The position numbers and the translations under genes are program-made. The notes below the pieces were generated by a model that searched no databases, was not told the DNA's origin, and saw only the letters and a list, made by a program, of their open reading frames with translations. DNA of 64,000 bases. Source: Tsuneonella deserti (GTDB taxonomy: Bacteria > Pseudomonadota > Alphaproteobacteria > Sphingomonadales > Sphingomonadaceae). Where the stretch lies: the NCBI RefSeq assembly GCF_014644315.1, contig NZ_BMKL01000001.1, forward strand, positions 1,003,001 to 1,067,000. The letters run 5' to 3'. Shown piece by piece: positions 19,493 to 55,968 of the stretch (the stretch's first letter is position 1; the number at the start of each line of letters is the position of its first letter).

Positions 19493-20269
19493 TCACGCAT
19501 CTGAATGCTTTGGGGGGAGCTTCTGGCGGATCATCGCGCGCAAGGTTTGCGCATCTTCGATCGCCGCGGCCCCAATGTCGTTGTTGAAATAGGCCCAGAG
19601 GGCGCGCCCCTTACTGGCCTGCTCGACCATCCAGTCGGTCCAGGCAAGCAGTCGCTCATCAGGATAGCGGCCCGAATACTTGCCCGTCCCGCCATGGAAG
19701 CGGATGTAGGCGATGGGTCCCACAGCTTCGCGAGGGCTGGAGTTTCCGGGCATGTCGTGGACGCAGAAGCTGGCGCCGTAGCGACCGAGCAAGGCGAATA
19801 CCTCGTCACAATACCAGCTCTGTTCACGGAATTCGAAGACGTTGGTCACGCCGGGGGGCAGCAGGGCGAGAAAGCTTTCCAGCCGGTCGAGGTTCACCTT
19901 GAAGCGCGGCGGAAGCTGGTAGAGCATCGGGCCGAGCGCGCCGTCGAGCGGTTTCACTGCGTCCATCATTCGGACCAGGGGCTCCTCGCAATCCTTCAGC
20001 TTCTTGGCCTGGGTGATGAAGCGGTTCGCCTTGACGGCGTAGCAGAATCCCTCGGGCGCCTGCCTGCGCCAGGCCTCGAAGGTGCTGGCGGGCGGCAGGC
20101 GATAGAAGCTGTTATTGATCTCGACCGTGTCGAAGCTGTCGGCGTACCAGGCGAACCACCGCTTGACGGGGAGCCTTTCGGGATAGAACAGCCCGCGCCA
20201 ATGCTTGTACATCCAGCCGGAGCAGCCGATGCGCACTGGTGCCGAAGGAGCTGAATCGTGAGCGCGCAT
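19493..20269 (-). CDS. DUF72 family protein (first of two)
   Basis: 258 residues. The family hallmarks are RIGCSGWMYKHWRGLFYP, the VEINNSFYRLP strand, FCYAVKANRFITQAKKL, YQLPPRF and FEFREQSWYCDEV, with the closing YFNNDIGAAAIEDA. DUF72 (YecE-like) proteins adopt a TIM-barrel fold and have no established reaction. The ATG at 20269 overlaps the divergent thiE start by 12 bases; a GTG at 20236 just before RIGCSGW is an equally possible start, and neither has a clear ribosome binding site. A second DUF72 gene is found at 44866-45591. Confidence 0.85.
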   Translation of the reverse strand: MRAHDSAPSAPVRIGCSGWMYKHWRGLFYPERLPVKRWFAWYADSFDTVEINNSFYRLPPASTFEAWRRQAPEGFCYAVKANRFITQAKKLKDCEEPLVRMMDAVKPLDGALGPMLYQLPPRFKVNLDRLESFLALLPPGVTNVFEFREQSWYCDEVFALLGRYGASFCVHDMPGNSSPREAVGPIAYIRFHGGTGKYSGRYPDERLLAWTDWMVEQASKGRALWAYFNNDIGAAAIEDAQTLRAMIRQKLPPKHSDA

Positions 20270-42000: not shown

Positions 42001-42483
42001 TCAGAGTGCGGCTTCGGCGTGGCTGTCGGCAACCTCGCCGCGGACGTCCATGCCCATTGCCATCTTGGCTGTGGTGAGAATTCCCTGGTCCGCTGCCCAT
42101 AGTTCGGCATTGCCGAGGTCCATGCGGAGCATCAGCAGGTTGGGATCGTCCTTCCCTCCCGGGAAATAGGCTTCAACGAAATTGGACCACTGCTTGTCCA
42201 GCCGTTCGCGGCTGGTTTCTTCGGTCAGGTTGCCTTCGAAGCGCGCGAACATGTCGTGGTCCTTGCTCGCGAAAGTGCACGTCGCCGGGCCCATCTCGGC
42301 CAGGTGATTGTCCTTCGAGGTGAAGAACCAGATCGCGCTGTTGGCATCCTTGTCGAGTTGGGCGGTCATCACCACCGCATCGTTGGCGGTGCTTTGCAAG
42401 GACACGAAAACGAACGGCGAATCGGCGAACGCTTTCCAGAATTTCTGCTTCAGTTCCTCGGCATTGCCTTGGTCGTATTTCAT
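42001..42483 (-). CDS. Pyridoxamine 5'-phosphate oxidase-family (general stress protein 26-like)
   Basis: 160 residues with the split-barrel FMN-binding fold of the general stress protein 26 group: FVFVSLQSTANDAVVMTAQLDKDANSAIWFFTSKDNHLAEM, followed by CTFASKDHDMFARFEGNLTE and a C-terminal ELWAADQGI. An excellent ribosome binding site (AAAGGAGAT) precedes the ATG. Reaction unknown. Divergent from imuA, so it shares the 90-bp region containing a LexA box. Confidence 0.85.
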   Translation of the reverse strand: MKYDQGNAEELKQKFWKAFADSPFVFVSLQSTANDAVVMTAQLDKDANSAIWFFTSKDNHLAEMGPATCTFASKDHDMFARFEGNLTEETSRERLDKQWSNFVEAYFPGGKDDPNLLMLRMDLGNAELWAADQGILTTAKMAMGMDVRGEVADSHAEAAL

Positions 42484-42555: not shown

Positions 42556-42570
42556 GAACATAACCGGAAC
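42556..42570 (+). promoter_or_regulatory. LexA (SOS) box upstream of imuA
   Basis: GAACATAACCGGAAC, an exact match to the alphaproteobacterial LexA operator GAAC-N7-GAAC. It lies between the divergent stress-protein gene and imuA. Its right edge is two bases before an ATG at 42573, so translation of imuA more likely begins at the next in-frame ATG. Confidence 0.88.
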
Positions 42571-42590
42571 AGATGAGTCGTTTCCGCGCC

Positions 42591-43376
42591 ATGTCCCTGC
42601 TTGCCGAGCCTGCCCAACCGCTTCTCTCCGGATCCGGTCTTGCGGCGGTTTCCTCACGTGCGAAGCGATGGCGGCCGGGGATCGCCGCCCCTTATCACAA
42701 CGAGGTGTTCGCTCCGGGTGGTGAGGCATCGGGGGCGGCTGCCGCGCTGGCTTTTGCAATCGATGCCTTGCGTCATGCCGAAGCCGGACCTGCTGCCGAA
42801 GCGGAAGACCGCCGCGCGCTGTTGTGGGTGCAGGACAAGGCCGCTCTCCGGTTAGGTGGGCGCCCCTACCAACCGGGACTACCGGCAGCTTTCCGTCACC
42901 GGCTGGTGCACGTGGTCTGCGAAAAGCCCGAGGACGCGCTGTTTGCGCTCGAGGAAGGGTTGCGCTGCCGGGATGTCGCCGCAGTGATCGGCGAAGTCGC
43001 GGGCAATCCCCGGGCGCTCGATTTCACTGCTTCGCGCCGGCTTACACTGACATCGGAAAAGCACGGCGTTCCCCTGTGGCTGGTGCGTCTCGATGCCACC
43101 CATGACCTGTCGTCGGCGCGGATGCGGTGGAAAGTGCGCGCCGCGCCGTCCCCGCCGCCCCGCTGGAACGCGCAGGCTCCCGGCGCTCCCCACTGGCAGG
43201 CCGAACTGTTCCGCGCCCGTCAGCATCCCCCCGGTACATGGACCTTGAGCGATGAGCAGGACCGTCTCGCCGCCGCCAAAGTCACCACCGATGATACCGC
43301 CGACAGCGAATCCGCCGCGCCGTATCCTCTCGGCCTGGCTTTCGCGGCTGGCGATCGATCGCTGGCGGCTGGCTGA
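42591..43376 (+). CDS. imuA: ImuA, SOS mutasome accessory protein
   Basis: RecA-like accessory factor of the ImuA-ImuB-DnaE2 translesion system. About 261 residues from the ATG at 42591; an ATG at 42573 is also in frame but abuts the LexA box. Features: YHNEVFAPGGEASGAAAALAFAIDAL near the N-terminus, LLWVQDKAALRLGGRPYQPGL, LVHVVCEKPEDALFALEEGLRC and the strand VAAVIGEVAGNPRALDFTASRRLTLTSEKHG. It overlaps imuB by 125 bases in another frame, an unusually long overlap that requires tight coupling. Confidence 0.87.
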   Translation: MSLLAEPAQPLLSGSGLAAVSSRAKRWRPGIAAPYHNEVFAPGGEASGAAAALAFAIDALRHAEAGPAAEAEDRRALLWVQDKAALRLGGRPYQPGLPAAFRHRLVHVVCEKPEDALFALEEGLRCRDVAAVIGEVAGNPRALDFTASRRLTLTSEKHGVPLWLVRLDATHDLSSARMRWKVRAAPSPPPRWNAQAPGAPHWQAELFRARQHPPGTWTLSDEQDRLAAAKVTTDDTADSESAAPYPLGLAFAAGDRSLAAG

Positions 43377-44877
43377 AGGCTGTGCGCCGGGGGAGGGCGC
43401 CGATGCCGAGCCGCTGGCGCTGATCACCGACACCGCGCACGGACCGCGCATCGATGCCGCCAACGATGCCGGTCTCGCGGCCGGTGCGCGCCCCGGCATG
43501 ATGCTGGCGGACGCGCGTGCGCTGTGTCCGCAAATCGGGGTGAGCCCAAGCGATCCGGCAGGCAATCACGATTTCCTCGAGAAGCTGGCGCTGTGGGCGC
43601 TTCGCTGGGGTCCGTGGTCGGCGATGGACGCGCCCGATGGGCTGCTGGTCGATATCACCGCAGTCGCTCACCTGTTCGGTGGGGAAGCGAGGTTGGTTGC
43701 TGATGTGCAAGCCCGCTTCGCCTCGCGCGGACTGGCTGCCCATGTCGCCATCGCGCCGACTGCGGGGGCGGCATGGGCGCTGTCGCATTACGGACTGCCG
43801 GGCACGATTCTTGCCCCTTCGGATGACACTGCCGCACGCCTTGCCGACCTGCCGGTGGCGGCGTTGCGGCTCGACGGCGACGTGCTCGCGGTGCTGCGAC
43901 GGCTTGGCCTCAAGCGTATTGGAGACATGACCGATCGGTTTGGCGAAAGCACGGGGCGCGATGCGCTGCATCGCCGTTTTCGCAACCGCAAGTCGCCCGG
44001 CGCCAATCCGCTTGTCCGGCTCGACCAATTGCTTGGCAAAGTGCCCGAGCCGCTCCTGCCGGTGGTGCCGACCACAATGCCTCTGGTCCAGCGCCGGCTG
44101 ATGGAACCCATCCGGCATCGCGCCCTGCTCGATACCGTTGTCGCCGATCTCGCCGCCGACATGGCTCGCACGCTGGAAGGGCTGGGGCAGGGCGCCCGTC
44201 GGCTGGAACTGGGCATGTGGCGGATCGATGGCGAAGTGGTGATCCGTCGCCTGGAGCTGGCTGCCGCCACGCGCGAGGCGGCCCATATCGTCCGCCTGTT
44301 CGCCGCCCGGCTCGATGACGTCGATGCAGGCTTCGGAATCGAGACCGTCCGCCTGCGCGCCAGCTGGGCGGAACCGCTCGCGCTGGCTCAGGCCGATATC
44401 GAGGCGGCGGCGGAGGAGCATGGCACCAGTCTAGCCGCCTGTATCGACCGCCTGACTGTCCGCTTGGGGGCCAATGCGGTGCGCCGGCCGGTGGCCTATG
44501 CCAGCCATATCCCCGAACGTGCGCAGCGTTGGCAGCCGCCGCTGGAACCCGAGCCGGCCGCGCAGGGCGAACTGGCGTTCCATGCCCGTCCTCTCAAGCT
44601 GCTCGACCGGGCAGAGAAGATCGCGGTGCTCTATTCCACTCCCGATGGCTACCCGCGCGCTTTTCGCTGGCGCGGCCGGGTTCACGAGGTTGCCCGGGTC
44701 GAAGGCCCCGAACGGATCGCGCCCGAATGGTGGCGCGAGAAAGGCAACGCCCGCCTGCGCGACTATTACCGGATCGAGGACGAGGGGGGGCGCCGTTACT
44801 GGATCTATCGTCTCGGCCTGATCGGCGATGGACGCGGCGGCCCGCCCGACTGGTTCCTGCAGGGGCTATGCGCCTGA
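43252..44877 (+). CDS. imuB: ImuB, Y-family polymerase-like mutasome protein
   Basis: 541 residues. A Y-family polymerase fold without the usual acidic active-site residues: it begins ILSAWLSRLAIDRWRLAEG, continues through GLAAGARPGMMLADARALCPQ and GLLVDITAVAHLFGGEARLVADVQARFASRGL, and ends in a C-terminal extension after the little-finger-like region. In characterised systems ImuB links the beta clamp, ImuA and DnaE2. The 125-base overlap with imuA could shorten if translation starts at the ATG at 43291. Its 3' end overlaps the convergent DUF72 gene by 12 bases. Confidence 0.88.
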   Translation: MSRTVSPPPKSPPMIPPTANPPRRILSAWLSRLAIDRWRLAEGCAPGEGADAEPLALITDTAHGPRIDAANDAGLAAGARPGMMLADARALCPQIGVSPSDPAGNHDFLEKLALWALRWGPWSAMDAPDGLLVDITAVAHLFGGEARLVADVQARFASRGLAAHVAIAPTAGAAWALSHYGLPGTILAPSDDTAARLADLPVAALRLDGDVLAVLRRLGLKRIGDMTDRFGESTGRDALHRRFRNRKSPGANPLVRLDQLLGKVPEPLLPVVPTTMPLVQRRLMEPIRHRALLDTVVADLAADMARTLEGLGQGARRLELGMWRIDGEVVIRRLELAAATREAAHIVRLFAARLDDVDAGFGIETVRLRASWAEPLALAQADIEAAAEEHGTSLAACIDRLTVRLGANAVRRPVAYASHIPERAQRWQPPLEPEPAAQGELAFHARPLKLLDRAEKIAVLYSTPDGYPRAFRWRGRVHEVARVEGPERIAPEWWREKGNARLRDYYRIEDEGGRRYWIYRLGLIGDGRGGPPDWFLQGLCA

Positions 44878-45591
44878 CGCATCCTTAAGCTCCAGCGCAT
44901 CGCCCATCGCGGCAGACGAAGCCGTATTGTCGAAGATGCACCACGCCGCGCTCCCGGTCCTTGCTGCTTCGTCAATGGTGGACGCATATGCCGCGATGCG
45001 ATCGTGGTAGCTCGAACGGTACATCACCGGCGATCCGTGCAGCCGCCAGTAGGCGAGGCCGCTCCAGCCGCCGGGTTCCCCCGCGCCCGGATGGCGTGCG
45101 GGATCGGCTGCGACGCGCGCGACGCGCAGACCTGCCAGCAGGGCATCTGCCTCGTCGGTAAACCAGCTCTGATGGCGCGGCTCGCACGCGATCGCCGCAT
45201 GACTGCGCACTGCCAGATCGGTGAAGAATGCGCGCGCGACCTGTGGATCGAGCGCCAGTTTCGGGGGCAACTGAACGAGCAGCACCGCCAGTTTTTCGCC
45301 CAGAGCCCCCACCTCGGCAAGAAAGGTGGCCAACGCTTCCTCATGGTCCGCCAGCTTGAGCTCGTGGGTGATCCGCTTGGGCACTTTGACCGAGAAGTGG
45401 AAGCCCGCCGGCACGCTGTCGCGCCACCGCTCCCAGGTCGAAACACGATGCGGGCGGTGGAAGGAACTGTTGATTTCTACCGCGTCAAACACGGCCGAGT
45501 AGCGTTCCAGGCTGCTGCCCACCGGGGGGAAGCGGTCCGCAGCCTCGCGCCCGATGCTCCATCCTGCGGTGCCGATGCGGGTCGATCCCAT
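44866..45591 (-). CDS. DUF72 family protein (second of two)
   Basis: 241 residues from the ATG at 45591. The family markers are RIGTAGWSIGREAADRFP, VEINSSFHRPHRVSTWERWRD, FHFSVKVPKRITHELKL, VQLPPKLAL, CEPRHQSWFTDEA and CIFDNTASSAAMGDALEL. It is shorter and diverged from the DUF72 protein at 19493-20269. It lies between imuB and the radical SAM gene, with its 5' end 56 bp from a LexA box it could share. The TIM-barrel fold and lack of known reaction make it a candidate uncharacterised DNA-damage factor. Confidence 0.85.
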   Translation of the reverse strand: MGSTRIGTAGWSIGREAADRFPPVGSSLERYSAVFDAVEINSSFHRPHRVSTWERWRDSVPAGFHFSVKVPKRITHELKLADHEEALATFLAEVGALGEKLAVLLVQLPPKLALDPQVARAFFTDLAVRSHAAIACEPRHQSWFTDEADALLAGLRVARVAADPARHPGAGEPGGWSGLAYWRLHGSPVMYRSSYHDRIAAYASTIDEAARTGSAAWCIFDNTASSAAMGDALELKDASGA

Positions 45592-45646
45592 ATGCGGCCA
45601 AATGCCCGACCCGTGCTGCGGTTGCCTCTTGGCGAATCTGTTGAAG

Positions 45647-45661
45647 GAACATATGTAGAAC
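45647..45661 (+). promoter_or_regulatory. LexA (SOS) box upstream of the radical SAM - UdgX - dnaE2 unit
   Basis: GAACATATGTAGAAC, an exact GAAC-N7-GAAC match, sharing GAACAT with the imuA box. It lies between the divergent DUF72 gene and the radical SAM gene, two bases before an in-frame ATG at 45664. It predicts LexA control of the three genes to its right and possibly of DUF72. Confidence 0.88.
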
Positions 45662-45678
45662 GAATGGGCCCGCAAACG

Positions 45679-46908
45679 ATGATCGAAAAGCTCGGAATTC
45701 TCGCCGACGCGGCGAAGTACGATGCTTCCTGCGCCTCTTCGGGCACCACGAAACGCAATTCGAGTGGAGGCAAGGGCATCGGCTCGACCGAGGGGATGGG
45801 CATCTGCCATGCCTACGCGCCCGATGGCCGGTGTATCTCGCTGCTCAAGATCCTGCTGACCAATCACTGCGTGTTCGATTGCCATTATTGCATCAACCGC
45901 AAGAGCTCGAACGTGCGTCGGGCGCGGTTCACGCCGCAGGAAGTGGTGGACCTGACCCTGAGTTTCTACCGGCGCAATTACATCGAAGGGCTGTTTCTTT
46001 CCTCTGGCATCGTGAAGTCCTCCAATCACACGATGGAGCAACTCGTCGAAGTCGCGCGGATGCTGCGCGAGGAGCACGATTTCCGCGGCTACATTCACCT
46101 GAAGACCATTCCCGAGGCCGACCCGGAACTGGTCCACCAGGCGGGGCTTTATGCCGACCGGGTTTCCATCAACGTCGAGCTGCCCACCGATGCCGGGCTC
46201 GTCCGCCTCGCGCCAGACAAGAGCGCGCGCCAGATCGAAGGCGCGATGGGCAAGGTGAAGAGTGATATCGTCGAGGCGAAGGATGCGAAGAAGCGCTTCC
46301 AGCACGCACCGCGCTTTGCACCGGCCGGGCAATCGACCCAGATGATCGTCGGCGCCGATGCGGCGAGCGATGCCGACATTGTGGGCAAGGCCAGCCGGCT
46401 CTACGACAGCTTCGGGCTTCGCCGGGTCTATTACAGCGCATTCTCGCCAATCCCCGATGCGAGCGCGGTGCTGCCTTTGAAGCGCCCGCCGCTGATCCGC
46501 GAGCACCGGCTTTACCAGTCTGACTGGCTGATGCGGTTTTACGGTTACAAGCCGGCCGAGGTGATGCAGGCGACCGAGGCGGATGGAAACCTGCCGCTCG
46601 ACATCGATCCCAAGCTGGCCTGGGCGCTCAAGTTTCGCGAGCGATTTCCGGTCGATGTCAACCGCGCTCCGAAGGAAGCGTTACTGCGCGTCCCGGGGCT
46701 GGGGGTGCGGGCGGTGCAGCGGATCCTTGCCAGCCGTCGCCACCGGACGATGCGCCTCGACGATGTCGCCAAGCTGACGGTGTCGATCGCCAAGGTGCGG
46801 CCTTTCATCGTCGCTGCCGACTGGCGGCCCGTTCTGCTGACGGACCGGGCGGACCTGCGCGCGCTGCTTGCTCCCAGGCAGGAGCAGCTCGAGCTGTTTG
46901 CGGCATGA
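45679..46908 (+). CDS. Putative DNA modification/repair radical SAM protein
   Basis: 409 residues from the ATG at 45679, where conserved sequence begins (IEKLGILADAAKYDASCASSG). The radical SAM cluster motif CxxxCxxC is HCVFDCHYC (Cys64, Cys68, Cys71). Additional cysteines (Cys18, Cys43, Cys52) may bind another cluster. The C-terminus has a helix-hairpin-helix DNA-binding motif, VPGLGVRAVQRILASRR. This is the TIGR03916 family, always named for DNA repair by context, with unknown chemistry. A start at 45664 abuts the LexA box. Overlaps UdgX by four bases. Confidence 0.88.
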   Translation: MIEKLGILADAAKYDASCASSGTTKRNSSGGKGIGSTEGMGICHAYAPDGRCISLLKILLTNHCVFDCHYCINRKSSNVRRARFTPQEVVDLTLSFYRRNYIEGLFLSSGIVKSSNHTMEQLVEVARMLREEHDFRGYIHLKTIPEADPELVHQAGLYADRVSINVELPTDAGLVRLAPDKSARQIEGAMGKVKSDIVEAKDAKKRFQHAPRFAPAGQSTQMIVGADAASDADIVGKASRLYDSFGLRRVYYSAFSPIPDASAVLPLKRPPLIREHRLYQSDWLMRFYGYKPAEVMQATEADGNLPLDIDPKLAWALKFRERFPVDVNRAPKEALLRVPGLGVRAVQRILASRRHRTMRLDDVAKLTVSIAKVRPFIVAADWRPVLLTDRADLRALLAPRQEQLELFAA

Positions 46909-48344
46909 GCGCGCCATTCCGCGACATGCGCCTGGCGCATACTTTCAACGTCACTTTGCCCGAATCCGACGACTTCGATTTCTGGCGCGAGCGGGCGCGT
47001 GCGCTCGTCCAGTGCGAAGTCCCGCCCGACCGGATCGCATGGGTCGAACCCGGTAGCTCAGGTGATCTTTTTTCGCATGGCGATCGCCGCCTGCCGGTGC
47101 CCCCTGCTGATGCCCCACCGGTGCGCGCGAGCAAGGCGTTCGTCCAGCTGGCGAAATCGGCGATTTGCCATTCGGAACCCGAACGCTTCGCACTGCTCTA
47201 TCGTCTCCTGTGGCGGCTGCAGACGAATCCGCGACTCCTGGAGGATGGGGCGGATCCCGATGTGCGGCGGCTCGACGAACTCGCCCGCACGGTGCGGCGC
47301 GACATTCACAAGATGCGCGCCTTCGTGCGCTTCCGGCTGGTTGAGGGAGAGGCTCACGGCGAAGAGCATTACGTCGCGTGGTTCGAACCCGAACATCACA
47401 TCCTGCGCGCCAATGCGGGTTTTTTCACGCGGCGGTTCGCCAACATGAAATGGTCGATCCTTACGCCGAGAGGATCGCTTCACTGGGACGGCCAGGTTCT
47501 GGAGGAAGGACCTCCTGCCGATCGGTCCGACGCGCCGGCGGGGGATGCCGCCGAAGACCTGTGGCGCAAATATTATGCGTCCATCTTCAATCCCGCGCGT
47601 TTGAAGATCGGGGCCATGCTCAAGGAGATGCCCCGCAAGTATTGGAAGAACATGCCCGAGGCGGCGCTCATTCCCGAGCTGGTTGCCGGGGCGCAGGCGC
47701 GGGAGTCGCAGATGGTCGCCGCCGGCACGCTGGACATGGGTGAACGGCCCGAAACGCTCGCCGCCATCGACAAGGCGATCCACGCCTGCCGGATGTGCCC
47801 TATCGGTCTGCTCGATAACAATGCGGTGATGGGCGAAGGACCGCGCGATGCCGCGCTGATGATCGTGGGCGAACAACCAGGCGACCAGGAGGACGAGAGC
47901 GGTCGTCCGTTCGTCGGCCCGGCCGGACAATTGCTCGATCGCCACCTTGAACGTGCCGGGATCGATCGGCGCAGCGCTTACGTCACCAATGCGGTCAAGC
48001 ATTTCAAGTTCGTACAGCGTGGCAAGCGGCGATTGCATCAGTCGCCGACTGCCAAGGAGATCGATATCTGCCGCTGGTGGATGGAAGGCGAGCTGGCGAT
48101 CGTGCAGCCGAAGCTGGTCCTTGCGATGGGCGCCAGCGCGGCGCGCGGAATGCTCGGCAAGACAGTGAGCATTTCAAAAGCCCGCGGTGCCCCGATGCCG
48201 CTCGAAGATGGCAGCGAATTGTGGGTGACCGCCCACCCGTCCTACCTGCTGCGTCTCGATGGTCCGGCGCGCGAGGAACAGGCACGCCTGTTCGATGCCG
48301 ATCTGGCCGCGGTGAAGGAACGGCTCGAGGAACTCGCTGGGTGA
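46905..48344 (+). CDS. udgX: DUF4130 - UdgX fusion, uracil-DNA-binding protein
   Basis: 479 residues in two parts. Residues 1-260 are DUF4130 (TIGR03915), with FRLVEGEAHGEEHYVAWFEPEHHILRANAGFFTRRFANM. From about 290 on is a family 4-like uracil-DNA glycosylase with CRMCPIGLLDNNAVMGEGP, motif A GEQPGDQEDESGRPFVGPAG, YVTNAVKHFKF and motif B HPSYLLRL. It carries the UdgX loop KRRLH with His378; in Mycobacterium UdgX the matching KRRIH histidine bonds covalently to uracil in DNA. The two four-to-five-base junctions with rSAM and dnaE2 suggest one transcript. Confidence 0.92.
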   Translation: MSAPFRDMRLAHTFNVTLPESDDFDFWRERARALVQCEVPPDRIAWVEPGSSGDLFSHGDRRLPVPPADAPPVRASKAFVQLAKSAICHSEPERFALLYRLLWRLQTNPRLLEDGADPDVRRLDELARTVRRDIHKMRAFVRFRLVEGEAHGEEHYVAWFEPEHHILRANAGFFTRRFANMKWSILTPRGSLHWDGQVLEEGPPADRSDAPAGDAAEDLWRKYYASIFNPARLKIGAMLKEMPRKYWKNMPEAALIPELVAGAQARESQMVAAGTLDMGERPETLAAIDKAIHACRMCPIGLLDNNAVMGEGPRDAALMIVGEQPGDQEDESGRPFVGPAGQLLDRHLERAGIDRRSAYVTNAVKHFKFVQRGKRRLHQSPTAKEIDICRWWMEGELAIVQPKLVLAMGASAARGMLGKTVSISKARGAPMPLEDGSELWVTAHPSYLLRLDGPAREEQARLFDADLAAVKERLEELAG

Positions 48345-48348
48345 TCGC

Positions 48349-51300
48349 GTGCCGGAAAACGATCTCCTCATGCCGCGCCGGCGGATCGAGCTCGATCCCG
48401 ATGGCATAGCCCCACCGCCGCGCAGCCCTTTCGTCGAGCTCGGCCTCGTCAGCAACTTCAGCTTTCTGCGCGGTGCATCCGATGCGGTGGATCTCGTGCT
48501 TACCGCCCATGCGCTCGGCTATGATGCGATCGGCATCGCAGACGTGAACTCGATGGCGGGCGTGGTGCGCGTGCATACCGAGGCAAAAACGCTGAAGATG
48601 CGGCCGGTTATCGGCTGCAGGCTGGAAACGGTCGAAGGTCTCGCGTTCCTTGCCTATCCCGTGGACCGCGCCGCTTACGGTCGTCTGTGCAGGCTGATCA
48701 GCGCCGGGCGCATGCGCACGCTGGAGGGGGAGTGGCAGGGCAAGGGGGTATGCGAGATCGATCTCGCCATGCTCGCCTCGCATGCGGAGGGGGTGCAGCT
48801 TGTCCTGCTACCCCCCGATGACCTGGCGCGGACGTTCACCGTTCCGGCCTGGAACAGCAACGTGGTGGCTCTCGCCGGCGGAGCGGCGCAAGACAGTGTC
48901 ACCGGCGAGTTCCAGCACATTATCAGACACCTGGCTGCGGGCCTTCCAACGTTGCGCCATCTTGCCGCCAGCTATCTTCATACCGGCGACGATATCGCCC
49001 GGATCGACCGGCTCGACGCCATGGGGCGCGAGAACGGGATGATGCTGCTCGCCACCAACGACGTGCATTACCACGCGCCCGAGCGTCGTCCGTTGCAGGA
49101 TGTAATGGTGGCGATCCGGCACAAGACCACCGTGGATCAGGCGGGGCACCTGCTGTTCGGCAATGCCGAGCGGCACCTGAAATCGCCGCGCGAAATGCAG
49201 GTCCTGTTCGCCCGCTGGCCGCACGCCATCGTGGCGGCACGCGAAGTGGCCGATGCCTGCGCCTTCACCTTGGACGAACTCAAGTACGAATATCCGGAAG
49301 AGATCTATCCCGACGGCATGACGCCACAGGAGTACCTGTCGAGCGAGACGTGGAAAGGTGCGGAATGGCGCTATCCCAATGGTTTGCCCGACAGCGTTCG
49401 CAGTACGATCGAACGCGAGCTGGCTCTGATCGGCAAGCTCGACCTCGCGCGCTACTTCCTCACCATCAAGGACATCGTCGATTACGCCCGGCACGAGGTC
49501 CAGCCGCCCATTCTGTGCCAGGGGCGCGGTTCGGCGGCGAACTCGGCGGTCTGCTATTGCCTCGGCATCACCAACGTGGATCCCGCCAAGCACCAACTCC
49601 TGTTCGATCGCTTCATCTCCGAGGAACGGAAGGAGCCGCCTGACATCGACGTCGATTTCGAGCACGAGCGGCGCGAGGAGGTGATTCAGCACATCTATGC
49701 GAAATACGGTCGCGAGCGCGCGGGCCTATGCGCCACGGTGATCCACTACCGCCCCCGCATGGCGATCCGTGAGGTCGGAAAGGCTATGGGACTGTCCGAA
49801 GACGTCACCAGCGCGCTCGCGCGCACCGTGTGGGGCGGGTGGGGCAAGGAAATCGGCGAGCGCCATGTTGAGGAAACGGGCCTCGACGTGAGCGATCCGC
49901 ACCTGCGGCGCGTTCTCAAGCTGACCGAGCAAATGATTGGTATGCCACGGCATTTATCCCAGCACGTCGGCGGCTTCATCCTTACCGAGCGAGCGCTGAC
50001 CGAAACCGTGCCGATCGGTAACGGCGCAATGCCCGATCGCAGCTTCATCGAATGGGACAAGGACGACATCGAGGCGCTCGGCATCCTCAAGGTCGACGTG
50101 CTCGCGCTGGGCATGCTGACTTGCATCAGGAAGTGTCTCGATCTGCTTGAAGAAACGCATGGCCGCCGCCTGACGCTCGCCACCGTTCCGCGCGAGGATC
50201 CCGAAACGTACGCGATGCTGCGCAAGGGGGATTCGCTCGGCGTGTTCCAGGTCGAAAGCCGCGCGCAGATGAACATGCTGCCCCGTTTGCGGCCACGCGA
50301 GTTCTACGATCTGGTCATCCAGGTCGCGATCGTGCGCCCGGGTCCGATTCAGGGGGACATGGTCCACCCCTATCTCAAGCGGCGCCGAGGTGCCGAGCAG
50401 GTGGTGATCCCCGCGCCCGGTCCCGCGCACGGGCCGCCTGACGAGCTGTCGAGCATCCTCGAACGCACGCTGGGCGTGCCGATCTTTCAGGAACAGGCGA
50501 TGAAGATCGCCCTCGACGCGGCGAAGTTCTCGTCCGCCGAGGCCAACCGCCTGCGCAAGGCGATGGCGACCTTCCGCAGCCGCGGGATGGTGGACGAGTT
50601 GCAGGACATGATGGTCGAGCGGATGGTCCACCGCGGTTATGACCGCGAATTTGCCCAGCGCTGCTTCAACCAGATTCGCGGCTTCGGCGAATACGGCTTT
50701 CCCGAAAGTCACGCGGCGAGCTTCGCGCACCTCGTTTATGTCTCGAGCTGGCTCAAATGCCACTTCCCCGCCGCGTTCGCCTGCGCATTGCTCAACTCGC
50801 AACCGATGGGCTTCTACGCCCCCGCGCAGATCGTGCGTGATGCGGCCGAACACGGGGTTCGCGTGCTGCCGGTGGACGTCAACGACAGCGAGTGGGACTG
50901 CACGCTGGAGGGACTTGGCGCGGGAAGCGCCTCGGCAGAGGACAACGGCCGTCTCGACCGGCACATTGCGCTCCGGCTCGGTCTGCGACAGATCGACGGC
51001 TTGCCCGAACACGTGGCCGCCCGGCTGATCGCCGCCCGGGCGGAGCTTGGACCTTTTGCCGATGTCGCGAGCCTGCGTGACCGGGCGGGATTAAGCCCCG
51101 CCCATATCGAGCGCCTCGCCAGTGCCGATGCGTTCCAGTCGCTCCATCTGCCGCGCCGCCAGGCCCTGTGGGACGCACGCAGTCTCGTCGGCGGACCTGA
51201 CTTGCCGCTGTTCGCCTTTGCGCAATCACGGGATGAGGGCGCCGAAGTCCGGCCCACCGCCCTCCCGCGCATGCCGCTGTCGGAAGAAGTCGTCGCCGAT

Positions 51301-51906
51301 TACCAGACCACCCGCCTCAGCCTGAAAGCGCATCCGATGGCGTTCCTGCGCGCCAGCCTGGTCGAGCGGGGCTTCGTGCGCGCGGCAGATCTGCGATCGC
51401 GCAAGTTCCGCTCGATGGTCCAGGTTGCCGGCGTAGTGCTGATCCGCCAGCGGCCGGGCAGCGCCAAGGGCGTGTGCTTCATCACGCTGGAAGACGAGAC
51501 CGGGGTGATCAACCTGGTGGTCTGGCCGGACCTCAAGGACAAGCAGCGCAAGGTGGTTATGGGATCCCGCCTGATGGAGGTGCGCGGCCGTGTCGAATAC
51601 GACGATGAGGTGATCCACGTGATCGCCCACCACATGACCGATGCGACACACGAGCTTCACCGTCTGTCGGACGAGCTCATCAAGACCCCGATCGCGCGCG
51701 CCGACCACTGCAACAACCCGCTGCCCCCCGGGTTCGGTCCGACCGGTAACTTGCGCGATGGCAAGGATGACCCGCACCGGCCGGTCGAACCTTGGCAGCC
51801 TCCGGGGCCCAACAACCGCGAGTGCGGCTTTACTGGAGGCCACCCGCGCGATGTCCGCATCGTGCCAAAGCTCATGCCGTTGCCCCCGTCGCGGGATTTC
51901 CACTAG
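48349..51906 (+). CDS. dnaE2: Error-prone DNA polymerase DnaE2
   Basis: C-family polymerase of the ImuA/ImuB/DnaE2 mutasome. 1185 residues, rather long for the family. Order: a PHP domain (FVELGLVSNFSFLRGASDAVDLVLTAHALGYDAIGIADVNSMAGVVR), the palm with GRGSAANSAVCYCLGIT and the catalytic acidic PPDIDVDFEHERREEVIQHIY, the fingers, a helix-hairpin-helix region and a C-terminal OB fold (VQVAGVVLIRQRPGSAKGVCFITLEDETGVINLVVWPDL). The start is GTG at 48349, with an ATG alternative at 48370. It follows UdgX by four bases and is thus separated from imuAB by the repair genes. Confidence 0.94.
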   Translation: MPENDLLMPRRRIELDPDGIAPPPRSPFVELGLVSNFSFLRGASDAVDLVLTAHALGYDAIGIADVNSMAGVVRVHTEAKTLKMRPVIGCRLETVEGLAFLAYPVDRAAYGRLCRLISAGRMRTLEGEWQGKGVCEIDLAMLASHAEGVQLVLLPPDDLARTFTVPAWNSNVVALAGGAAQDSVTGEFQHIIRHLAAGLPTLRHLAASYLHTGDDIARIDRLDAMGRENGMMLLATNDVHYHAPERRPLQDVMVAIRHKTTVDQAGHLLFGNAERHLKSPREMQVLFARWPHAIVAAREVADACAFTLDELKYEYPEEIYPDGMTPQEYLSSETWKGAEWRYPNGLPDSVRSTIERELALIGKLDLARYFLTIKDIVDYARHEVQPPILCQGRGSAANSAVCYCLGITNVDPAKHQLLFDRFISEERKEPPDIDVDFEHERREEVIQHIYAKYGRERAGLCATVIHYRPRMAIREVGKAMGLSEDVTSALARTVWGGWGKEIGERHVEETGLDVSDPHLRRVLKLTEQMIGMPRHLSQHVGGFILTERALTETVPIGNGAMPDRSFIEWDKDDIEALGILKVDVLALGMLTCIRKCLDLLEETHGRRLTLATVPREDPETYAMLRKGDSLGVFQVESRAQMNMLPRLRPREFYDLVIQVAIVRPGPIQGDMVHPYLKRRRGAEQVVIPAPGPAHGPPDELSSILERTLGVPIFQEQAMKIALDAAKFSSAEANRLRKAMATFRSRGMVDELQDMMVERMVHRGYDREFAQRCFNQIRGFGEYGFPESHAASFAHLVYVSSWLKCHFPAAFACALLNSQPMGFYAPAQIVRDAAEHGVRVLPVDVNDSEWDCTLEGLGAGSASAEDNGRLDRHIALRLGLRQIDGLPEHVAARLIAARAELGPFADVASLRDRAGLSPAHIERLASADAFQSLHLPRRQALWDARSLVGGPDLPLFAFAQSRDEGAEVRPTALPRMPLSEEVVADYQTTRLSLKAHPMAFLRASLVERGFVRAADLRSRKFRSMVQVAGVVLIRQRPGSAKGVCFITLEDETGVINLVVWPDLKDKQRKVVMGSRLMEVRGRVEYDDEVIHVIAHHMTDATHELHRLSDELIKTPIARADHCNNPLPPGFGPTGNLRDGKDDPHRPVEPWQPPGPNNRECGFTGGHPRDVRIVPKLMPLPPSRDFH

Positions 51907-52107
51907 GCTCGTACCATTGCAGAACACCCAAGCGCGCTGAGGCGGCCCGGCGCGCCTGTAGCTCGACCAGAGCTATTGGACTTCCGTCCCGTCCGCCGGC
52001 CAGCGCCAATAGGCGCCGGATCCTTGCGCTGCTTGCGTGCGGCGCCGCGATGGGGCAACGGGCGCACCGCGCGCAGGCGCACAACAAGAACAAACGGAGT
52101 ATCGCTG

Positions 52108-52755
52108 GTGTTCGACTGGTTTCGCCGCCTGGTTCCGAGTTCCGCCGACTTCTTCGTTCTGTTCGAACGACACTCCAGGGCTACCGTCGCTGCCGGCGAG
52201 GCGCTGGCGCAGCTCGTTCGCGGAGAGGGGGACCGCATGGGCCTCGTCGCTACGATTCGTGACCGTGAGCACGATGCGGACGACATCATCCGCGAGGTGC
52301 TGACGGAAGTCCGCCAGACGTTCCTTACCCCATTCGATCGCGGTGCGATCACCGGGCTGATCGCGGCGATGGACGACGTGACGGACGAGATCCAGTCCTG
52401 CGCCTCGGCCATCGAGACTTACGATTTCGACGATTTCGCGCCGGATATGCGCGAGATGGCGGCCCACATCTGCCGGGCTCTTCACAAGATCGACGAGGCG
52501 CTGCCGCTGCTGCGCGACGTGCCGCGGAACGGGAAGCGACTGCACGAGCTGACCGGCGAGATCGTCACAGCAGAAGGCGAGGTCGATATCATTCATACCC
52601 GCGGGCTCAAGGCCAACTTCGCCGCCGCCATGAGCAGCGGCCAGACGGTGCCCTTCATCGTCAACCGGGAGATCTTCAAGCACCTGGAGAAGATCGCCGA
52701 CGCGTTCGAGGACGTCGCCAACCAGATCGACGGCATCGTCATCGATTACGCCTGA
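52108..52755 (+). CDS. DUF47 (PhoU-like) phosphate transport regulator
   Basis: 215 residues from the GTG at 52108 with CGGAG upstream. All-helical: FDWFRRLVPSSADFFVLFERHSRATVAAGEAL, a conserved DREHDADDIIREVL, TPFDRGAITGLIAAMDDVTDEI with metal-binding acidic residues, and FKHLEKIADAFEDVANQIDGI at the C-terminus. DUF47 proteins are usually encoded directly before PiT transporters and modulate their activity. It is 13 bp upstream of the PiT gene. Confidence 0.9.
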   Translation: MFDWFRRLVPSSADFFVLFERHSRATVAAGEALAQLVRGEGDRMGLVATIRDREHDADDIIREVLTEVRQTFLTPFDRGAITGLIAAMDDVTDEIQSCASAIETYDFDDFAPDMREMAAHICRALHKIDEALPLLRDVPRNGKRLHELTGEIVTAEGEVDIIHTRGLKANFAAAMSSGQTVPFIVNREIFKHLEKIADAFEDVANQIDGIVIDYA

Positions 52756-52768
52756 AGGGGCGCCGGAC

Positions 52769-53767
52769 ATGCACGAACTCGCCTTGCCGCTGCTCGTCGC
52801 GCTGATAGCTCTGGCGCTGGCGTTCGATTTCCTGAACGGGCTGCACGATGCGGCCAACTCGATCGCGACGGTGGTTTCGACCCAGCTCCTCTCGCCGCTG
52901 ATGGCCGTGCTCTTCGCCGCGGCGGGCAACTTCCTCGCTTACTGGATTGTCGGGCTGCACGTAGCCGAGACGGTGGGGAAGGGAATTGTCGACAAGGAAA
53001 TCGTTACTCCGGCAGTCGTGTTCGGCGCGCTGATCGGTGCAATGTTCTGGAACGTGGTCACCTGGATCAAGGGAATCCCTTCTTCGTCGAGCCATGCGCT
53101 GATCGGTGGGTTGCTGGGCGCCGGGATCGCAGCGAGCGGCTTTGGGGCAATACAGGCCGAAGGTACCATCAAGACGCTTGTGGCCATTTTCCTGTCACCG
53201 ATGCTCGGCTTCGTCATCGCGATGGCTTTGATGCTTCTGACGAGCGTGCTGTTCCAGCGTTCCACTCCGCGAAAGGCGAGCAACACGTTCAAGGTGCTGC
53301 ACCTGTTCTCTTCGGCTGCCTACTCGATCAGCCATGGCGGCAACGATGCTCAGAAGACGATGGGCATCATTGCCGTCCTGCTCTATTCGACAGGGCATCT
53401 TGGAGGTGAGTTCCACGTTCCCGAATGGGTCGTGCTGAGCTGCTATGCGGCGATTTCGCTCGGCACGCTTTCAGGGGGCTGGCGCATCATCCGCACGATG
53501 GGCACCGGACTCACCAAGCTCAACCACCATTCCGGGTTTTGCGCCTCCACGGCGGGTTCCATCGTGGTGTTCGGCGCCAGCGCGATGGGCATTCCTGTGT
53601 CGACGACTCATGCGATCACGGGAAGCGTTGTCGGCACCGGCGCGGCGCGACGTACTAGCGCCGTACGCTGGACCGTTGCGACGCGGGTGGTCACGGCGTG
53701 GTTCATCACCATTCCGGCAAGCGGCCTGGTCGGAGCGGCGTTTTACCTGCTCACGCGGCTGTTCTGA
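52769..53767 (+). CDS. pit: PiT-family low-affinity phosphate transporter
   Basis: 332 residues, ten or so transmembrane helices and the two inverted PiT signatures: DFLNGLHDAANSIATVVSTQ near the N-terminus and YSISHGGNDAQKTMGIIAVLL in the second half, plus SSSHALIGGLLGAG and STTHAITGSVVGTGAARR. Moves phosphate (as a metal-phosphate complex) with protons or sodium. Expressed with the DUF47 gene upstream. Confidence 0.94.
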   Translation: MHELALPLLVALIALALAFDFLNGLHDAANSIATVVSTQLLSPLMAVLFAAAGNFLAYWIVGLHVAETVGKGIVDKEIVTPAVVFGALIGAMFWNVVTWIKGIPSSSSHALIGGLLGAGIAASGFGAIQAEGTIKTLVAIFLSPMLGFVIAMALMLLTSVLFQRSTPRKASNTFKVLHLFSSAAYSISHGGNDAQKTMGIIAVLLYSTGHLGGEFHVPEWVVLSCYAAISLGTLSGGWRIIRTMGTGLTKLNHHSGFCASTAGSIVVFGASAMGIPVSTTHAITGSVVGTGAARRTSAVRWTVATRVVTAWFITIPASGLVGAAFYLLTRLF

Positions 53768-53802
53768 TCGCTCGAAGAAATCCCCTCCTACCGGAGGGAG
53801 GT

Positions 53803-53877
53803 TGGTGACCCCTACGGGAATCGAACCCGTGTTTCAGCCGTGAGAGGGCCGCGTCCTAACCGCTAGACGAAGGGGCC
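53803..53877 (-). tRNA. tRNA-Glu(CTC)
   Basis: 75 nt, CCA encoded. Acceptor GGCCCCT/AGGGGTC; anticodon stem CGGCC/GGCTG with loop CTCTCAC (anticodon CTC); T-arm ACGGG-TTCGATT-CCCGT. Differs from the next tRNA almost only in the anticodon base. Confidence 0.95.
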
Positions 53878-53904
53878 ATCCTGCTGGACGGCGCTGCTTT
53901 CCGA

Positions 53905-53979
53905 TGGTGACCCCTACGGGAATCGAACCCGTGTTTCAGCCGTGAAAGGGCCGCGTCCTAACCGCTAGACGAAGGGGCC
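53905..53979 (-). tRNA. tRNA-Glu(TTC)
   Basis: 75 nt, CCA encoded, upstream partner of tRNA-Glu(CTC) with a 27-bp spacer. The anticodon loop is CTTTCAC (anticodon TTC). The two genes are nearly identical, a tandem duplication with one anticodon change. Confidence 0.95.
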
Positions 53980-54103
53980 ACGCCCGGAAGCGTGGCGGGC
54001 GCATTAGGGTGGAGGGGGTGCCCGGTCAAGCCTGTCTCGACGTCAATCGACCGGCGGGGCACAACAACCGGATATCGCAGAGGCCGGGCCCCCTGTTCGG
54101 GTG

Positions 54104-55888
54104 CTAGTCGGCCCAGGCGGCATCATCGACATGAAGCTCCGCCTGCGGACGGTCTCCCCAGTCGTCGATCTTGGCGCGGCCCGCCAACCACAGTCTTCGC
54201 CCGCTCGATCCGTGCACCAGTGCCTGACCCAGAGGGCTTTCGGCAGCGCGAAAGGCGATCGCCTTGAAGGTCCTTCCATCGGAACCGCTGGCAACAAGCC
54301 GGACGTGGTCCGTACCCACTACCTCCGCCCGCACCAGCCGCACGGGCCCAACCGCGATCCGGGGGCCGGGCCAGCCCATTCCAAACGGCCCCGCGCGCTC
54401 AAGTGCTTCCACCAGCTCAGGCGTCAGCCCACCCGGGGCGAGCGCCAGATCCATTGGCATCGTGCCGCTCTCCATTGCCCGTGCCACCTGCGCGCCAAGG
54501 CGGGCGTCAAGCCAGTCGGCCAAGGCGCCGAGCTTGTCCGCTTCGATCGTCAGGCCCGCCGCCATCGCGTGACCGCCGCCTGCGACCAACAGACCTTCTT
54601 CGCGCGCTGCTATGATCGCAGCGCCGAGATCGATGCCCGCGATCGAGCGTCCGGAGCCCTTGCCCGTCCCTTCATCAAGCGCGATGACAACCGCGGGCTT
54701 GCCGGTCTTTTCCTTGATCCGGCCGGCGACGATGCCGATCACGCCCGGATGCCAGCCGTGTCCGGCCAGCACGTGCACTGCGCGATTGTGCTGCCCGTCC
54801 AGCAAAGCCTCCGCCGCCGCCTGCACTTCGGCCTCGATGGCGCGACGCTCTTCGTTGAGGGCCGAAAGCTGCTGGGCGATGGCGGAGGCTTCGTCAGGAT
54901 CGTCCGTCGTCAGCAGCCTCACGCCAAGGGTCGATTCGCCTACTCGGCCGCCAGCATTGATGCGCGGGCCGAGCGCGAAGCCCAGGTCGCTGCAGACTGG
55001 TGCGCGCTTCAACCTGCTTGCGTCGATCAGCGCTGCCATCCCGATATTACCGCGCCGGGCCATGACTTTCAGGCCCTGTGCGACGAAGGCGCGGTTGAGT
55101 CCGCGGATTTGGGCCACGTCTGCGACGGTTCCGAGCGCGACGAGGTCGAGCAGGCTCATCAAATCCGGCTCGGCGCGATCCTTGAAATGGCCGTACGAGC
55201 GCAGCGTGCGAACCAGCGCGACCCCAAGGACGAATGCCACACCGACCGCCGCGAGGTGGCCATGCGCGGCGCCTATCTCGCCTTCGTCCAGCCGATTGGG
55301 ATTCACCAGTGCAGCCGCGAGTGGCAATTCGTGCGCGCACTTGTGATGGTCCACGACGATTACGTCCACGCCGGCCGCGTGCGCCTGCGCCAGCGCATCA
55401 TGCGCCATCGCTCCGCAATCGACCGTGACGATCAGGCTGGAGCCTTCTTCCGCCAGTCGCACCAGTGCCTCGCCACTCGGTCCGTAACCCTCGAGCAGTC
55501 TGTCGGGGATGTAGTAGCGGGCGCCGTGCCCCACCATCCGCAGGAGCCGGATCAGCAACGCCGCGCTCGTCGCTCCATCGACGTCATAGTCGCCGTACAC
55601 GGTGATGGTCTCGCCGCCCATCACCGCTTGCGCCAGCCTTTCGGCTGCCGCGTCCATGTCGCGAAAGTGGGAAGGGTCGGGCAGGAAGGCTCGCATCGTC
55701 GGGTTGCGGTGACGATCGAGGTCATCGCGCTCCACTCCCCGGGAGAGAAGGAGTTGGGTCACGATGTCGTCGAGCAGCCCCGCGCCCCATTGCGCGCTCA
55801 CGTCCATGTTGCCGCCGCGCCAGTGCCAGGCTTTTCCGGATAAAGATCGGTCGACGCCAAAGACGTGGTTAAGGGAGCGAGTAGGCAT
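54104..55888 (-). CDS. recJ: Single-stranded-DNA exonuclease RecJ
   Basis: 594 residues from the ATG at 55888 (AGGTGA upstream). DHH-family 5'-3' exonuclease of recombination and mismatch repair. Motifs: VYGDYDVDGATSAALLIRLL (motif I), IVTVDCGAMAHDAL, VIVVDHHKCAHE (motif III with DHH), RINAGGRVGESTLGVRLL and the DHHA1 domain with GSGRSIAGIDLGAAI and LLVAGGGHAMAAGLTI, then an OB-fold C-terminus. Repair gene, but with no LexA box seen upstream. Confidence 0.95.
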   Translation of the reverse strand: MPTRSLNHVFGVDRSLSGKAWHWRGGNMDVSAQWGAGLLDDIVTQLLLSRGVERDDLDRHRNPTMRAFLPDPSHFRDMDAAAERLAQAVMGGETITVYGDYDVDGATSAALLIRLLRMVGHGARYYIPDRLLEGYGPSGEALVRLAEEGSSLIVTVDCGAMAHDALAQAHAAGVDVIVVDHHKCAHELPLAAALVNPNRLDEGEIGAAHGHLAAVGVAFVLGVALVRTLRSYGHFKDRAEPDLMSLLDLVALGTVADVAQIRGLNRAFVAQGLKVMARRGNIGMAALIDASRLKRAPVCSDLGFALGPRINAGGRVGESTLGVRLLTTDDPDEASAIAQQLSALNEERRAIEAEVQAAAEALLDGQHNRAVHVLAGHGWHPGVIGIVAGRIKEKTGKPAVVIALDEGTGKGSGRSIAGIDLGAAIIAAREEGLLVAGGGHAMAAGLTIEADKLGALADWLDARLGAQVARAMESGTMPMDLALAPGGLTPELVEALERAGPFGMGWPGPRIAVGPVRLVRAEVVGTDHVRLVASGSDGRTFKAIAFRAAESPLGQALVHGSSGRRLWLAGRAKIDDWGDRPQAELHVDDAAWAD

Positions 55889-55968
55889 TCCGCTCACCTA
55901 TCCGACCCCGGCGCGGGCGGCAAACCCGCTCGTGGTTGACAACCGGCACCCAGGGGCGATGGTTACCT

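Follow-up and report, generated by a model that had tools for sequence, protein, structure and literature searches.

The window analyzed here, a 64,000-nucleotide (nt) stretch of the Tsuneonella deserti contig NZ_BMKL01000001.1, contains two neighboring gene units that appear to form a single LexA-repressed DNA-damage island. The first unit consists of imuA and imuB, which belong with the error-prone polymerase gene dnaE2 to the ImuA-ImuB-DnaE2 mutasome. The second consists of a radical SAM gene, a gene in which a DUF4130 domain is fused to a UdgX domain, and dnaE2 itself; the radical SAM and DUF4130-UdgX genes are referred to below as the repair unit. The features of the locus, in window coordinates, are as follows.

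42556..42570, plus strand: LexA box 1, GAACATAACCGGAAC, before imuA; perfect GAAC-N7-GAAC
42573..43376, plus strand: imuA; position before imuB, weak NF033429 match (26.2 bits)
43252..44877, plus strand: imuB, longest frame, with C-terminal ImuB-C/DUF6504; PF00817 (34.8 bits) and PF20114 (35.3 bits), both above cut-off
44866..45591, minus strand: DUF72 gene, a passenger; PF01904 (169.7 bits)
45647..45661, plus strand: LexA box 2, GAACATATGTAGAAC, before the radical SAM gene; perfect box, the closest one upstream of dnaE2
45664..46908, plus strand: radical SAM gene, family TIGR03916 (rSAM_link_UDG); 580 bits, cut-off 343.5
46905..48344, plus strand: DUF4130 (residues ~21–253) fused to UdgX (residues ~255–470); TIGR03915 (226 bits) and TIGR03914 (314.9 bits), both above cut-off
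48349..51906, plus strand: dnaE2, error-prone DNA polymerase III alpha; NF004225 (1388.3 bits, cut-off 939)
42001..42483, minus strand: pyridoxamine-5'-phosphate-oxidase-like gene, divergent from imuA; PF16242 (73.5 bits); a flank marker, not assigned to the system

An earlier interpretation made from the letters of the DNA (the sequence-only reading) had placed two perfect LexA boxes ahead of imuA-imuB and of radical SAM-DUF4130/UdgX-dnaE2, and both lie exactly where it put them. Box 1 ends 2 nt ahead of the annotated imuA start. Box 2 ends 2 nt ahead of the first ATG of the radical SAM gene (an alternative ATG start lies at 45679), within the 72-nt gap between this gene and the divergent DUF72 gene, and from there to the end of dnaE2 the sequence has no further LexA box. 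The same reading held that the genes within each unit overlap or nearly touch, which agrees with the measured distances: the imuA frame and the longest imuB frame share 125 nt, the radical SAM gene runs 4 nt into the DUF4130 gene, and the end of UdgX and the start of dnaE2 are 4 nt apart. Because of the 125-nt overlap, the true start of imuB may lie further in. The ImuB protein has a Y-family domain (PF00817) and an ImuB-C domain (PF20114), both above cut-off, and a PF11799 match of 20.1 bits against a cut-off of 20.7. ImuA scores below the cut-off of its own model (NF033429, 150 bits) and is named from its position together with the weak match.

The DUF72 gene does lie between the two units, as had been noticed, but it is on the opposite strand and starts 55 nt away from box 2, and its presence at this position is not shared by any relative. 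A search of 100 fetched stretches, not all of them long and not all from different genomes, found no relative of its protein (best tblastn hit outside the window at E 0.014), and neither did a search of the 80 named loci described below. In other genomes, the interval from imuB to the radical SAM gene carries other, unrelated genes, several of them common to near kin only. Since no relative was found and the cargo of this slot varies, DUF72 was rejected as a component of the system; it is a passenger. The window contains a second DUF72 gene (19541–20236, minus strand; PF01904, 219 bits), which is ~35% identical to the one at 44866–45591.

LexA operators and their conservation

The T. deserti genome contains one gene with a LexA DNA-binding domain (C1:1166175), and a box starting at C1:1166128 lies directly upstream of it. 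The motif GAAC-N7-GAAC occurs at 86 sites genome-wide, compared with 54 for the reversed control, and boxes also stand before uvrA, before an RmuC-like gene and before an SplB-like radical SAM gene (all three named by eye). When the 86 sites were ranked by a site score, box 1 was fifth and box 2 second. The score was trained on the boxes before the radical SAM genes of relatives, one of which is identical to box 2, so that the rank of box 2 is partly circular, while that of box 1 is unaffected. The top-scoring LexA box of the genome (G000:C1:1250495, L073) is the one before the SplB-like radical SAM gene, so that predicted LexA control seems to extend to two different radical SAM enzymes in this genome.

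Within the window, the motif was seen four times with 1.7 expected, and this count was discarded as evidence, since it is reached in 8 of 100 shuffles. Taken by itself, it would suit an explanation by chance matches, under which no SOS island exists. The case for real boxes is carried instead by their position and their conservation.

Conservation was assessed in 147 genomes of the order Sphingomonadales (43 of them, T. deserti included, with TIGR03916 above cut-off), in 299 genomes of the phylum (53 carriers of the radical SAM gene, of which the 43 outside the window's family were used for operator counts), and in the best 80 of at least 578 confirmed named loci. These samples overlap (e.g. 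L061 and L190, whose contigs have equal lengths), and the order, class and named-locus counts are not additive. Caulobacter crescentus, included as a control in the order search, carries the family too. Seven operator patterns were tried outside the family; only the alphaproteobacterial (alpha) ones and CTGT-N8-ACAG, the LexA box typical of beta- and gammaproteobacteria, were used.

Among the 42 order relatives, 41 have a perfect box within 200 nt upstream of the radical SAM gene (17/17 of those with the gene linked to dnaE2, 24/25 of the unlinked), the sole relative without one being G002, a fragmented genome. Outside the window's family, the alpha box precedes the radical SAM gene in all 26 genomes of the same class and in none of the 17 genomes of other classes, 12 of which have CTGT-N8-ACAG, 3 a one-letter departure from it and 2 neither. 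The alpha box is also found within 250 nt of the gene in 78 of the 80 named loci (exceptions L233 and L249). In random windows of the same loci, real boxes included, the alpha box occurs at 5.2% (245 nt) and, for the named loci, 2.9% (295 nt), and CTGT-N8-ACAG at 2.3% in the other classes. Upstream of imuA, a perfect box lies within 300 nt in 27/27 relatives. Such conservation, together with the class-specific swap of the operator, refutes the explanation by chance matches as far as sequence can, and we regard that explanation as hardly credible. The LexA-type operators proposed before both units are thus conserved among relatives, and they make a strong case for the predicted LexA co-regulation of the two units.

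Linkage of the repair unit to the mutasome genes

The radical SAM gene lies less than 2 kb from dnaE2 in 18 of the 43 order carriers, which belong to one sphingomonad clade. The arrangement imuA-imuB-(variable gap)-radical SAM-DUF4130/UdgX-dnaE2 is seen in 16 of the 17 fetched linked relatives; in the remaining one, L066, imuA and imuB are not on the fetched stretch. None of the 17 has a box of its own within 300 nt upstream of dnaE2. Six family members without the unit were fetched, and in four of them (L171, L174, L175 and L176) imuB touches dnaE2, with gaps of ~0.5 and ~1.4 kb in L172 and L173. Because imuB adjoins dnaE2 in four of these six relatives, the unit was most likely inserted between the two genes. 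This would have happened in an ancestor of the Erythrobacteraceae/Novosphingobium group, the unit bringing along a LexA operator, so that dnaE2 now lies behind it and has no nearby operator of its own.

The two units are also joined in other ways. In four of the five carriers in family f14 (L127–L130), the repair unit and imuA-imuB-dnaE2 point away from each other and share a single intervening box; the units of Henriciella pelagia (L217) are also divergent, with two boxes. Across the 80 named loci, imu genes or dnaE2 lie inside the fetched flank in 16, and 6 of the unlinked loci are too short to judge. An unrooted FastTree tree was built from 147 radical SAM rows, 141 of which carry a label. 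Linkage occupies three separate places on it and requires 10 changes, at least six of them forced by starred branches; the mean after shuffling is ~34. The sequence-only reading had proposed surveying co-location in the order, and the outcome is better than chance. Several of the linkage changes within the sphingomonad clade are probably losses, and the count cannot separate gain from loss.

Parts of this arrangement have been described before. The family TIGR03916, which we take to be the same as COG4277, is described as paired with TIGR03915/DUF4130. In Bacteroidetes, a uracil-DNA glycosylase (UDG)-family gene and a COG4277 gene form a LexA-regulated two-gene operon, considered a putative base excision repair system, and SOS control of UDG-COG4277 in Verrucomicrobia and Alphaproteobacteria is cited in the same article (Sanchez-Osuna et al. 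2021, PMC8565304). The likeness lies in a UDG-family gene beside a COG4277 gene under SOS control; in the accessible part of that article, however, the operon is described neither inside nor divergent from imuA-imuB-dnaE2, and DUF4130 and UdgX are unnamed. Aravind et al. (2013, PMC3765255) predicted that DUF4130, which they associate with radical SAM and UDG genes, is a mutagenesis-related enzyme, and they give ImuB-C as the C-terminal domain of ImuB. The accessible text of this second article links DUF4130 with SplB-like radical SAM and UDG genes, as here, but places stand-alone ImuB-C beside SplB-like genes, whereas the present unit is found between imuB and dnaE2. From the position of DUF6504 within ImuB, we infer that ImuB-C corresponds to this Pfam family. 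In comparison with the ImuA-ImuB-DnaE2 cassette, the locus has all three genes and a LexA box ahead of imuA, but dnaE2 is split from imuB by the repair unit and stands behind a second LexA box. No description of a physical union with imuAB-dnaE2, or of a single shared operator, was found in titles and the beginnings of abstracts, most subscription journals being outside this coverage. The SOS arrangement is real and conserved and its families are ordinary; the manner of joining is new as far as searched.

Occurrence of the units apart from each other

Direct rechecking showed that 7 of the 53 phylum carriers have only a lower-scoring, replicative-type DnaE and no DnaE2; six of these seven retain a perfect or near box, and L117 has none. 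In an eighth carrier, G199 (contig C28), DnaE2 is split over two frames, possibly through sequencing error. Among eight sphingomonad genomes chosen as unlinked, three are without DnaE2 and five have it elsewhere. The boxed unit is kept in G134 (99% complete) and in the genome of L196 (Qipengyuania algicida), both with only the lower-scoring replicative-type DnaE, and in the genome of L197 (metagenome-assembled, of unknown completeness), in which no DnaE2 was found. Conversely, 44 of the 86 DnaE2 genomes of the order are without the repair unit. Plasmids, alphaproteobacterial ones and some others, also carry the radical SAM gene, which was matched at E ≤ 1e-40 in 158 of 72,556 plasmid records. 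In the five that were viewed (L259–L263), a box precedes the gene in 5/5 and UdgX comes next in 4/5, the fifth match lying at the record end; no imu genes are annotated within 8 kb on them, in a plasmid gene table that is incomplete.

The composition of the repair unit itself varies. DUF4130 is beside the radical SAM gene in 43/43 phylum loci and is fused to UdgX in 29 of them; one of the other 14, L131, is cut by a contig end, and UdgX is absent in 13 of the 42 assessable DUF4130 genes. The 14 loci without a fused UdgX have a perfect class-type box in 10 cases, a near one in 3 and none in 1. Since the boxes persist at these loci, predicted LexA control follows radical SAM-DUF4130 with or without UdgX. 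Two further variations were observed: the UdgX of G030 (L066) matches as two pieces in different frames, possibly because of sequencing error, and a hemerythrin-domain gene lies between the radical SAM and DUF4130-UdgX genes in several Sphingomonas-type loci (L206:8297–8776, PF01814, 63.6 bits; the same placement by eye in L193, L198, L203, L205, L210 and L232).

These distributions bear on a reading in which the radical SAM enzyme and UdgX are dedicated mutasome accessories that clear or cap uracil, or some other base, immediately in front of DnaE2. It gains from the union of the units at three separate tree places, once with one shared operator, and from the linked clade, in which dnaE2 lies closely 3' of UdgX with no other nearby box. 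DnaE2 is also commoner in radical SAM carriers than in non-carriers, both in the phylum (45/53, or 46 with the split G199, vs 69/246) and in the order (42/43 vs 44/104), with kinship ignored and split DnaE2 genes not sought among non-carriers. The carriers that hold the unit without DnaE2 (G134, the genomes of L196 and L197, and 7/53 in the phylum), the order genomes with DnaE2 and no unit, and the viewed plasmids argue against it, and such a dedicated partnership is improbable in our judgment; an obligate partnership of the repair unit with DnaE2 is unlikely. The earlier proposal that the radical SAM enzyme and UdgX are damage-induced partners of DnaE2 is therefore retained in part: the conserved LexA-type operators and the co-location stand, whereas a dedicated partnership is not supported, given the 7/53 carriers without DnaE2 and the 13/42 DUF4130 genes without UdgX.

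Alternatively, SOS genes may simply gather at an existing LexA promoter, the junction of imuB and dnaE2 being merely permissive and the functional link consisting of shared induction only. The unrelated cargo that different species carry between imuB and the radical SAM gene (DUF72 here) fits this explanation, as do the several changes of linkage state within the sphingomonad clade. It is less easily reconciled with the meeting of the same two units at three separate tree places and with the LexA box that accompanies the radical SAM unit nearly everywhere, and we give it perhaps one chance in several.

The explanation preferred here, which we consider probable on these sequence comparisons, is that two SOS modules, co-regulated and repeatedly brought together, act in parallel on damaged DNA. 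Several observations weigh against it. The linked genomes in the sphingomonad clade are related, so that far fewer than 18 events are involved, and the linkage tree rests on FastTree only and is unrooted. G002, L117, L132, L233 and L249 are without a perfect box at the radical SAM gene, and L149, L158 and L159 have at best a box with a one-letter departure. The DUF4130 model matches no solved PDB fold at E ≤ 0.001. Finally, DnaE2 is present at 27/29 UdgX-fused loci (G199 included) and at 9/14 unfused ones (p 0.03, kinship ignored; p 0.09 if G199 is counted as without DnaE2), an association that leans weakly towards the dedicated partnership.

Proteins of the repair unit and their presumed action

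The radical SAM protein has the CX3CX2C motif at C69, C73 and C76 and extra cysteines at C23, C48 and C57, all of which are invariant in 20/20 and 37/37 aligned sequences. The cysteines upstream of the motif presumably resemble the auxiliary-cluster cysteines of lipoyl synthase. A C-terminal helix-hairpin-helix (HhH) region is suggested by a weak PF12836 match (21.9 bits at 330–360, cut-off 27). The structural model has a mean predicted local distance difference test (pLDDT) score of 81, with residues 24–47 and 51–56 below 50, and its fold resembles those of HydE (the top match), pyruvate formate-lyase activating enzyme, MiaB, biotin synthase and lipoyl synthase; the sequence profile matches no PDB chain at E ≤ 0.01. 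Identification as a spore photoproduct lyase is unsupported, with no PDB profile match and none so named among 50 of the 62 fold matches (E ≤ 0.001), from a library that was not checked for one.

The DUF4130 model (pLDDT 88) has no match among viral models at E ≤ 0.001, and because it matches no solved fold, no activity can be read from it. The UdgX domain aligns with UdgX crystal structures (6ail, E 1e-44) and scores 314.9 bits with TIGR03914 against a cut-off of 189.95. The motif A glutamine (GEQPG) and the R-loop histidine (KRRLH) are found in 70/70 aligned rows, the window included, which upholds the UdgX assignment of the sequence-only reading. Mycobacterial UdgX (6ail and others) has in common with the window protein the GEQPG motif A, the R-loop KRR-x-H with its cross-linking histidine and the motif B HPS; the window protein differs by its fusion to DUF4130 and by leucine in place of isoleucine in the R-loop. 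A phage or defence origin is unsupported: a confirmed relative is found on only two viral contigs, the radical SAM protein has one weak PHROG match, and PADLOC returned no match for the radical SAM, DUF4130-UdgX or DUF72 proteins.

A DNA-repair role of radical SAM-DUF4130 is likely. Under the parallel action of two SOS modules, DNA damage would activate RecA and lead to cleavage of LexA, and both units would be turned on together. Working with DUF4130 and perhaps anchored to DNA through its HhH region, the radical SAM enzyme might reverse or modify a damaged base by radical chemistry, which is conjecture. The UdgX domain would excise uracil and covalently cap the resulting abasic site, and DnaE2 with ImuB would copy past the remaining lesions. 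The units would thus work in parallel on the same damaged DNA, for which a standing complex is not needed. A more ambitious version is speculative and rather doubtful. In it, radical SAM-DUF4130 would be a widespread SOS enzyme with novel DNA-base chemistry, its operator would have been remade to follow the shifts of LexA specificity from class to class, and it would have joined the mutasome three times in the sampled genomes; restoring or capping bases and copying past them would then be one coupled response, encoded in the linked clade by one transcript and possibly carried out by one complex.

UdgX serves as a tool, and the accessible text of one article describes its physiological role as largely unknown (PMC10359453). 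The conserved LexA operator indicates when radical SAM-DUF4130 would act, namely after DNA damage, and the pairs without UdgX point to radical SAM-DUF4130 as the first part to assay. For the question of joint action, a natural contrast exists between genomes lacking DnaE2 and the clade in which dnaE2 is tied to the unit.

On the imuA side of the locus, the pyridoxamine-oxidase-like family has 18 matches among the 100 fetched stretches. A gene of this family lies near the radical SAM gene in L047, L048, L068, L179 and L182, where imuAB are absent from the spot, and it is possibly a marker of lost linkage. Downstream of dnaE2 (51976–55897) are a DUF47/PhoU-like gene, a phosphate transporter gene and, on the minus strand, recJ (PF01368, PF02272 and PF17768).

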